Below are positions 13,094-31,135 of a DNA stretch of 41,236 bases, one piece after another. A program made the translations under genes and the position numbers. Position 1 is the first letter of the stretch. Each line of letters begins with the position of its first letter. Below the pieces are notes generated by a model. It was given only the letters and a program-made list of their open reading frames with translations, was not told the origin of the DNA and made no database searches. This DNA is from Singulisphaera sp. GP187 (lineage in GTDB: Bacteria > Planctomycetota > Planctomycetia > Gemmatales > Gemmataceae), in NCBI GenBank assembly GCA_945905925.1, contig CAMDQN010000058.1:1-41236 (forward strand). The letters run 5' to 3'.

Positions 13094-13172
13094 GCTGTTT
13101 AGCCGCGACCCGGAGTCCGCGTCGGGGAGCGCGGCCCTCTGCGACGCGGACTCCGGGTCGCGGCTAAACAGC
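13094..13172. repeat. GTTTAGCCGCGA-family perfect 31-bp inverted repeat, copy 1
   Basis: Arms 13094-13124 and 13142-13172 are exact reverse complements (outer end GCTGTTTAGCCGCGACCCGG) with a 17-nt loop. It starts 4 nt after the hppD stop and ends 19 nt before the next gene. The outer 12 bases GTTTAGCCGCGA recur in the element at 18227-18301. Confidence 0.85.
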
Positions 13173-18226: not shown

Positions 18227-18301
18227 GTTTAGCCGCGAGCCGAAGGCGAGCGCGCCACCTACACGAATAGGGGCGCGTTCGCCTTCGGCTCGCGGCTAAA
18301 C
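18227..18301. repeat. GTTTAGCCGCGA-family 30-bp inverted repeat, copy 2
   Basis: Arms 18227-18256 and 18272-18301 are reverse complements except for one position that can form G-U. It starts 23 nt after the stop of the HTH-receiver gene. The outer GTTTAGCCGCGA is shared with 13094-13172; the inner stem (GCCGAAGGCGAGCGCG) differs. Confidence 0.85.
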
Positions 18302-26688: not shown

Positions 26689-28047
26689 CTAGACGGGCTT
26701 CTTCAGCATCTCCAAGAGCTTCTGCGCGCACGCCTCCGCAAACGCCGCGTCGTTGATGTGCAGATCGATTTCGACGAGTTCAACGTATGGCGGGATCCAG
26801 TTCCGCAAACTCTGGAACAGCGCCGCATCCGCCTCCGGCCACCAGAACGGTTTGCCCTCGACGTCGATCGCGGACACGCCCTTGAGCGGCACCATTACGC
26901 ACGTCGGGCTGTTCGCAGCGCTGGTCTTTTCCGCGATCCCTTTTCCTAACCGGTCCATTTCTTCGGGCGTGGTGCGCATGAGCGTGACGGTGGGATTGTG
27001 TCGGTAGAACAGCCGGTGCTTGTGCCAATCGGGCACGGTTTCTGGTGGGCCGAAGTTCACCATGTCGAGCGCGCCGAGCGAAACCACCTGCGGTACGCCC
27101 GCGACGGCTGCGGCGGTGAGCCGATCCGGTCCGGCGGAGAGAATGCCGCCCACGAGTTCGTCCGCGAGTTCGGTCGTGGTGATGTCCAGCACGCCGGCGA
27201 TGAGGCCATCGCGAATCAAGCCCTCCATCGTGCGCCCGCCGGTGCCGGTCGCGTGGAACACGAGCACCTCGTAGCCCGCCGCTTCGAGAATCTTGCGCGC
27301 CGCTTCGACGCATGGGGTCGTCACGCCGAACATGGTCGCGGCGATCACCGGTTTGTCGTCGGGGGAACTTCTCCCCCCGGCCCCCCTCCCTGACCCCGCA
27401 ACACCTACCCCACCCCCCCTCCCTGAAGGGAAGGGGGAGAAAGAACCTTCCGCTTCGCTTGCGCCTGAACGAGCGCCCAACTCTTTCTCCCCCCTCCCTT
27501 CAGGGAGGGGGGTTGGGGGGGTAGGTTTCTTAACCATTCCCGCCATCGCGCCAGCCGCGTTGTCGAGGACCGCGCGACTGATGCGGTTCAATCCCGCGAT
27601 GTCCACGACCGAGTACATCATCATCACGTCACGAGTCCCGACGTAATGCTGAACTTGCCCGCTCGCGAGCGTGCTGACCATCAGCTTCGGCACGCCCACC
27701 GGGAGCGCGCGCATCGCGGCGGTGCCAATCGTCGTGCCCGCGGACCCGCCCATCCCGAACACCCCGGACAACCTCCCCTGCTTGTGCAGTTCCGCCGCGA
27801 GTTTCGCGATTCCGGTCGCCGCGAGTTCCACCGCTTTCCCACGGTCCGCGGCGGTTTTCACCTGCTCCGCGGTCGCGCCAGCCGCGGCGAACACCTGATC
27901 GCGCGAAATGTCTGGCACAAACGCGGGCGGTCCCAAAACGCCAGTATCCGCCACGAGAACGGAAACACCGGCCGCTCGGAGCCGGTCGCGAACGTAGGCA
28001 AACTCTGTCCCTTTGGTGTCCAGAGTGCCAACCAGCAGAACAGACAT
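26689..28047 (-). CDS. Tm-1-like ATP-binding domain protein (UPF0261) with in-frame palindromic insertion
   Basis: A 452-residue cytoplasmic protein. The N-terminal Rossmann-like segment is L-L-V-G-T-L-D-T-K-G-T-E-F, then G-M-G-G-S-A-G-T-T-I-G-T-A-A-M-R and P-K-L-M-V-S-T-L-A-S-G. The C-terminal half has V-F-H-A-T-G-T-G-G-R-T-M-E-G-L-I. This is the UPF0261/Tm-1-like family, usually about 400 residues. Between the halves (about residues 175-228) there is a foreign Pro/Gly/Ser-rich segment (K-K-P-T-P-P-T-P-L-P-E-G-R-G-E-K-E) encoded by a palindromic repeat. The start ATG 28045-28047 follows GGAGAG. In other genomes such proteins neighbour, or are fused to, PEP-hydrolase-like TIM barrels; here one is two genes away. 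The activity is unknown. Confidence 0.85.
   Translation of the reverse strand: MSVLLVGTLDTKGTEFAYVRDRLRAAGVSVLVADTGVLGPPAFVPDISRDQVFAAAGATAEQVKTAADRGKAVELAATGIAKLAAELHKQGRLSGVFGMGGSAGTTIGTAAMRALPVGVPKLMVSTLASGQVQHYVGTRDVMMMYSVVDIAGLNRISRAVLDNAAGAMAGMVKKPTPPTPLPEGRGEKELGARSGASEAEGSFSPFPSGRGGGVGVAGSGRGAGGRSSPDDKPVIAATMFGVTTPCVEAARKILEAAGYEVLVFHATGTGGRTMEGLIRDGLIAGVLDITTTELADELVGGILSAGPDRLTAAAVAGVPQVVSLGALDMVNFGPPETVPDWHKHRLFYRHNPTVTLMRTTPEEMDRLGKGIAEKTSAANSPTCVMVPLKGVSAIDVEGKPFWWPEADAALFQSLRNWIPPYVELVEIDLHINDAAFAEACAQKLLEMLKKPV
27404..27525. repeat. Palindromic repeat inserted in frame in the UPF0261 gene
   Basis: Left arm 27404-27447 and right arm 27479-27525 form a stem of about 44 bp with a few mismatches (CCCCCCTCCCTGAAGGGA type) and a 31-nt loop (27448-27478). 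A further C-rich tail reaches to about 27361. The frame stays open through it on the minus strand. A design-related element (CCCTCTCCCCTTGGGGAGAG) is at 30812-30959. Confidence 0.85.
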
Positions 28048-30721: not shown

Positions 30722-30811
30722 CACCGCTGCGCGGAAAATGTGACGAACCGCTTTCGCGAATCGCGGCGGTGGAACTCTCAGGCTCTTCCGAACTCTTGGA
30801 CTTCGGGCTTG

Positions 30812-30959
30812 CCCTCTCCCCTTGGGGAGAGGGTGGCCGCGCTTCGCGGCCGGGTGAGGAGGAACCGACGCCACGCCGAAGAGCTTCGCGGACACGCCGA
30901 GCGAAACGCCCCCTGACCCGGCTCGAGGACTCGCCACCCTCTCCCACAAGGGGAGAGGG
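30812..30959. repeat. Long palindromic element, CCCTCTCCCCTTGGGGAGAG type
   Basis: Left arm 30812-30837 and right arm 30933-30959 pair over about 26 bp with one insertion, and inner CCGGGT / ACCCGG segments continue the pairing. The centre is about 95 nt. It lies between the divergent Bfd-like gene and the acyl-CoA ligase. It resembles in design the element inserted in the UPF0261 gene. Confidence 0.75.
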
Positions 30960-31135
30960 AAAGACGGTCACACTTCACCACGATTCGGTATGACTCATCC
31001 CTGCCCTTGATTCTTCAGATGCCGACTCGAACAATAAACCGGTTTGTCGTCCCAAGCAACTGTCCACACTTAGCCCGAAAAATCGCCGCCCATCTCTTGC
31101 CGGATTCTGTTCGAGAGCGACAAACCTTCCCGGCA

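Follow-up and report, generated by a model that had tools for sequence, protein, structure and literature searches.

A palindromic repeat family inserted in frame in protein genes of a planctomycete genus

The gene for a UPF0261 (Tm-1-like) protein on a planctomycete contig carries a long palindrome in the middle of its reading frame. What is this palindrome, how did it come to lie in a conserved gene, and how does the protein bear it? We examined these questions in the window, the whole stretch of 41,236 nucleotides that was analysed, which is contig C58 of its own genome (G000, a 6.47 Mb draft of 251 contigs), and in the genomes of relatives.

The palindrome and its host protein

The features of the locus are listed in Table 1. 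The two arms of the palindrome are 37 nt each and 95% complementary, at a spacing of 37 nt. When the coding strand of 27361-27532 was folded, about 43 stem pairs (9 + 34) were formed with a free energy of -115.5 kcal/mol. Shuffled sequences averaged -84.25 kcal/mol (z -6.44), and none of 200 was as low. The reading frame was open throughout the insert, which was flanked by PF06792 and PF23189. An earlier note on this DNA had described a palindrome lying in frame between two conserved halves of the gene, and the arms, the fold, the open frame and the flanking Pfam domains confirmed both its place and its kind.

Table 1. Coordinates of the features at the UPF0261 locus (positions in the window unless given as residues).
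Feature	Position	Strand	Basis or remark
UPF0261 (Tm-1-like) protein gene	26692..28047	-	452 codons, ATG at 28047
PF06792 N domain	aa 2-174 of UPF0261 protein		Pfam
PF23189 C domain	aa 232-447 of UPF0261 protein		Pfam
Entire inter-domain linker, 177 nt	27355..27531	-	Linker comparison across homologues
Full F1 palindromic element (two inverted arms and loop)	27404..27530	-	Read as PTPPTPLPEGRGEKE...SPFPSGRGGGVG
Inverted arm 1, with a small hairpin of its own	27408..27444		Inverted-repeat search
Inverted arm 2	27482..27518		Inverted-repeat search
Partial, degenerate second F1 arm adjoining the full element	27366..27393		82% complementary to 27500-27527

The AlphaFold2 model of the UPF0261 protein had a mean pLDDT of 86.8, with 327 of the 452 residues at 90 or above, and the pLDDT of residues 183-225 was below 50. 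In a Foldseek search with this model, the top matches were the Tm-1 structures 3wrx, 3wry and 3wrw (TM-score of about 0.8 by query length), and 9mpy, a UPF0261 protein, was a weaker structural match (TM-score of about 0.55). Both domains are confidently modelled, and the insert is predicted to be disordered. As judged from the sequence, the insert is probably translated, adding a Pro/Gly/Ser-rich segment to the protein. The suggestion that the linker tolerates new peptide is backed by this model and by the in-frame alleles of relatives described below.

The linker was then compared in 30 loci, 29 of which, including that of the window, had both domains. In 17 of the 28 other loci with both domains, the linker was 30-45 nt long, compared with 177 nt in the window. 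Relative to homologues with such short linkers, the gain is about 44-49 aa, a little below the earlier estimate of some 55 added residues. Within the genus, palindromes also occupy the linker of L032 (G010), L039 (G012) and L033 (G016, a different palindrome), and half or remnant palindromes were found in L042 (G001), L041 (G007) and L037 (G009), the last with a broken frame and stops. Yet another palindrome lies in the linker of L035 (G058), from another genus. Long linkers in L034, L040 and L049 had no obvious palindrome. Thus the homologue comparison gave 17 of 28 loci without the segment, and longer linkers that often, not always, held a palindrome or its remnant, sometimes of another family. 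When the window protein was aligned with 40 of 80 homologues, which are named records from several phyla, no consensus emerged across the linker. Short in-frame tandem repeats were observed in the linker of L047, L051 and L059 (G051, G055 and G022; other genera of the family).

The F1 family and its copies within genes

In this study, we found that the insert belongs to F1, a family of palindromic repeats that is mostly confined to the genus. A full F1 copy is about 85-150 bp long and consists of two inverted arms, each with a small hairpin, around a variable loop, and terminal inverted repeats are present, as in a MITE. Copies took three forms: the inverted arm pair with its loop, a single short palindrome, and one arm alone (a solo arm). 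A search of G000 with the 127-bp element gave at least 101 matching stretches on both strands (E up to 10; 40 of the 112 candidates scored), which were merged by eye into about 40 places. With an arm profile (nhmmer, E up to 1), 21 clusters, or about 52 per Mb, were found in 400 kb, sampled as 20 stretches of 20 kb from long contigs chosen by position, and 22 with the window; the 21 clusters take in sister families of like architecture and other sequence, as well as two weak matches. Extrapolation from 21 per 400 kb to 6.47 Mb, with the sister families and the two weak matches counted, gives about 340 copies per genome. The host genome search, proposed earlier as a check, therefore found many further copies, within and between genes.

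Arms of one copy matched each other better than arms of different copies (mean score of 32.8 vs 25.8; 0 of 10,000 permutations; n = 33), although the own partner was the single best arm match for only 6 of the 33, and subfamily structure alone could explain this difference. With E up to 1e-5 and at most eight candidates scored per genome, F1 was detected in at least 14 of the 19 genomes of the genus, G000 included, in at least 4 of 42 other family members, and in none of 38 genomes outside the family.

Other palindromes were also considered. The palindrome at 30812-30959, to which the earlier note had likened the arms of the insert, shares their style but not their family: the palindrome at 30808-30963 was rejected as an F1 member because its sequence (CCCTCTCCC...GGGAGAGGG) differs despite the like style. 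A simple pattern for the CCCTCTCCC...GGGAGAGGG type had no match in 400 kb of G000 outside the window. At 13094-13172 of the window, a long palindrome of related style (TTTAGCCGCGACCCGGAG...) lies between coding flanks and has a stop in that frame. In L083 (G000:C29), TTAGCCGCAAGCCGAAGGCGAGC-type palindromes at 1727-1816 and 2449-2522 flank a Y1-transposase-like ORF (a weak match, 27.2 bits) in a RAYT/REPtron-like arrangement, and a close variant of the TTAGCCGCAAGCCGAAGGCGAGC type is found in the window at 18227-18301.

Copies inside genes were identified by codon usage on both sides of each cluster, with a frame caller that was trained on G000 and was right for 946 of 965 pieces when scored on its own training set. 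By this measure, 23 of 62 clusters lay within one continuous coding frame. As this count requires an open frame, it cannot alone show that the inserts are in frame. Among the clusters chosen by position, 5 of 21 were inside genes (20 of the 21 re-examined by the frame caller). The hosts recognised by Pfam included proline utilisation A (PutA, where it lies between Pro_dh and Aldedh), an aldehyde dehydrogenase, a class-V aminotransferase (NifS-like), a Mur-ligase-family enzyme (FolC-like), P-type ATPases, a penicillin amidase, a flavin amine oxidoreductase-like protein (HpnE-like), a PSD1 protein and a U32 peptidase. As names of hosts, NifS, FolC, CopA, HpnE and ThuA are our own reading from sequence and Pfam. 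Among the frames across the copies (49 of the 62 clusters, E up to 1e-4), 93 of 174 were open outside genes and 61 of 120 inside. Since the open share is alike in and out of genes, the intragenic copies resemble an ordinary draw, with no special coding adaptation.

A scan for strong palindromes irrespective of family covered 441 kb of G000 and 400 kb each of G012 and G049. It detected 79 in G000, 39 in G012 and 42 in G049, and none in locally shuffled sequence. Those open in frame between coding flanks numbered 5 of 79, 1 of 39 and 0 of 42, respectively, and these low numbers indicate that palindromes in genes are a minority. In G000, 14 further palindromes stood between coding flanks of the same frame, each with a stop, and were read as intergenic. 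The G012 sample gave one in-gene palindrome although this genome holds inserts at several of the sites compared below.

Orthologous sites in related genomes

The element-free joined flanks of 16 sites, taken from the 23 intragenic clusters, were searched against 8 of the 18 congeneric genomes, and the left and right flanks were then located separately. The comparison comprised 16 sites (15 joined-flank sites and UPF0261) and 87 alleles, with 2-15 congeneric genomes per site. PSD1 was excluded from the allele count because paralogues, not orthologues, answered, and the FabA allele of G005 (L118, net -33 nt) stood outside it because the flank matches overlapped. The intragenic clusters of L010, L016 and L017, the second in L018 and two in L081 were left out. 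The loci of relatives were found by protein search, a method that may be biased towards open frames.

A length divisible by three without a stop was observed in 85 of the 87 alleles. Without the 16 alleles of G000, this was the case for 69 of 71, many of which are short, insert-free linkers, and for 22 of the 23 alleles outside G000 with a palindrome score of at least 9. Only two alleles were out of frame, L146 (CopA-like, G015) and L037 (UPF0261, G009, with a stop); both hold element remnants and are therefore read as decaying genes or assembly errors. F1 is dispersed within and between genes. Its copies at conserved sites in genes are in frame and free of stops, and this holds for the relatives as well.

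We investigated which families occupy these sites. Family tags were present in 39 of the 71 alleles outside G000, compared with 0.8% of 20,000 random 60-nt windows; the tags were composed after the alleles had been seen, and those of F4 and FB are short. Tags of at least two families were found at 13 of the 16 sites. The NifS-like loop holds F3 in G000, F1 in G003, F5 in G015 and an F4 remnant in G010, with only 12 nt in G001, and the HpnE-like, FabA and PMT sites likewise held different families across species. In the ThuA linker, a solo arm was shared by G000, G003 (degenerate), G005 and G007, and by G012 with a nested insert.

Nesting was also seen with F6, a short palindrome with the core CCTGTCAGCGGAGCTTCTCGCGG that sits at the hairpin tip between the halves of another palindrome, also in genes. 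Inspection by eye gave this tip position for most of some 30 contexts (L299-L328 from G009, G007, G001, G012 and G016, and L037, L150, L153 and L160), with L301, L307 and L323 not clearly fitting. Matches to F6 with up to three mismatches numbered 54 in G016, 18 in G009, 17 in G007, 11 in G012, 2 in G001, and 0 in both G000 and G010. By a shuffle test, which has little power when stems are short and GC-rich, 3 of 29 contexts had an outer stem around F6 with p < 0.01. The PMT-like membrane protein of L153 (G007:C1:476000-478100) has an in-frame linker of 381 nt with several palindromes, one of which has F6 nested in it.

The dispersed copies, the nesting and the presence of different families at one site back the earlier proposal that these elements move, with no clean junction between empty and filled sites or target-site duplication resolved by eye, as the orthologous sites were too diverged at the junction.

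Origin of the inserts and comparison with known systems

We propose, with a probability of about 0.83, that F1 is a non-autonomous, REP/RPE-like palindromic element, mostly confined to this genus, which persists in those genes whose loops can accommodate a translated insert. Copies would arise by transposition through a trans-acting enzyme. Roughly every second frame of a copy is open, so an insertion into a gene might be in frame and readable about one time in six. Selection would discard the unreadable insertions and keep those in tolerant surface loops or linkers. Such loops may then act as landing sites in which F1 and other palindrome families insert time and again, and the palindromes in them would decay through partial deletion.

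Other explanations were weighed against this proposal. F1 might be a REP/REPIN (BIME) family mobilised by a RAYT, with which it shares a high copy number and an architecture in which a hairpin repeat occurs both as inverted pairs and singly; many F1 arms have GTAG close to their outer end, and two genomes free of F1 (G011 and G017) are also without Y1_Tnp. However, this GTAG is base-paired within the outer stem and is absent from most arms of F2 and F3, the F1-rich, single-contig G007 has no Y1_Tnp match, the F1-free genomes G008, G014 and G013 hold 7, 5 and 4 matches, respectively, and no F1 arm is near the three Y1_Tnp matches of G000. The search with the Y1_Tnp family found no transposase link to F1, and the counts per genome do not clearly track it. 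We consider a RAYT-mobilised family possible but unlikely. It is improbable that the element was recruited for a function, with selection on its peptide (as a spacer or binding segment) or on its hairpin (for mRNA stability or translation pausing). The solo arm at the common ThuA linker of G000, G003, G005, G007 and G012 suggests long retention, but one loop holds unrelated families or nothing depending on the species, frame openness is equal inside and outside genes, and the insert is disordered in the AlphaFold model.

The extreme RNA hairpin (-115.5 kcal/mol) and the insertions within enzyme domains (aldehyde dehydrogenase, NifS-like, P-type ATPase and penicillin amidase) would suit an insert that is tolerated because it is removed after transcription or skipped by the ribosome, in an intron-like manner or by translational bypassing. 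A skipped element needs neither a length in multiples of three nor the avoidance of stops, and both were found in 22 of 23 palindrome-bearing alleles of relatives, which makes this reading very improbable. An assembly artefact, or ordinary low-complexity expansion of the linker by slippage, is scarcely credible: the host genome is a 251-contig draft and short tandem repeats do occur in the linkers of L047, L051 and L059, but similar inserts are found in G001, G007, G012 and G016, which are assembled in one to three contigs, the inserts are long, near-perfect inverted repeats and not tandem units, and the 79 palindromes of G000 stand against 0 in locally shuffled controls.

Within the preferred reading of a mobile palindromic element kept in tolerant loops, we lean towards a further proposal. 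Certain surface loops of core enzymes in the genus may be reusable landing pads. The unrelated families F1 to F5 would enter one and the same loop across species, be read through there, nest and decay, so that protein length at the loop would evolve by palindrome turnover. F6 appears to be a parasite of the other families, entering their hairpin tips even in genes and in frame.

Coding palindromes have so far been seen mainly as a peculiarity of Rickettsia, together with scattered intragenic REPs. The genus studied here appears to be Gemmata-like, judging by Gemmataceae records among the nearest named homologues, and Gemmata is free-living. Within this one genus, the inserts lie in many host proteins, come from several independent families and recur at common sites in several species. 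In-frame palindrome insertion is a way for proteins to gain new segments, and the rate at which proteins gain wholly new internal segments by insertion, and which loops accept them, can now be tested. These repeats also affect annotation, as they place recurrent Pro/Gly/Ser peptides in unrelated proteins and can create false homology. In a literature search that was thin on subscription journals, we found no earlier report of palindromic inserts in Gemmata proteins, nor of one loop being used repeatedly by several unrelated families in different species.

According to the available part of PMC10969869, the Rickettsia palindromic elements (RPE; Ogata et al. 2000, 2002) are about 150 bp long, form several families in and between genes, and are inserted in frame in unrelated genes. 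F1 is likewise palindromic, about 100-150 bp long, present in many copies in and between genes, and inserted in frame in unrelated genes. Unlike these elements, whose terminal tag is given as CGTC in the accessible text of PMC3733652, F1 occurs in a planctomycete genus, is unrelated in sequence and by reading has no CGTC end (its ends are GAAGAACCTACC...GGTAGGTTCTTC), and here one loop can hold different families depending on the species. The resemblance to Rickettsia that had been proposed for this insert therefore applies to the way of working, but not to membership. Long inverted repeats are also retained in conserved coding genes of nematomorph mitochondria (PMC6649704, available portion); there both arms encode conserved residues, whereas the palindrome described here is extra sequence, absent from relatives.

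REPINs, as described in the part of PMC3116915 at hand, are dispersed units of an inverted repeat pair and a loop, with singlets and doublets, and are predominantly extragenic and RAYT-associated, whereas F1 has no clear RAYT link. REPs are also known targets for insertion sequences (PMC1525189, in the part available). GTAG/CGTC-tagged REPs have been reported inside ORFs of several species as single repeats, inverted dimers and clusters (Di Nocera et al. 2013, PMC3733652). In the available sections of that paper, in which the name Gemmata does not occur, intragenic inserts are of 43-82 aa, double insertions are included, Opitutus terrae of the PVC group is among the hosts, REP families are also recorded in planctomycetes, and the authors suggest that REPs are tolerated in linkers or loops. 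F1 resembles these intragenic REPs in being a hairpin repeat, often an inverted pair, inside ORFs. Unlike the GTAG-tagged REPs of that text, F1 by reading has no unpaired GTAG; where the motif is present, it pairs with CTAC of the other arm. In solo arms GTAG would be unpaired, yet it lies several bases off the small hairpin. Within the same sections, different REPs at approximately the same recB site of two Xanthomonas species are one example of site reuse by different families, compared with many proteins here. In-frame palindromes in Rickettsia and intragenic REPs were known already; what is new here is the scale, together with the repeated occupation of loops by families that are unrelated.
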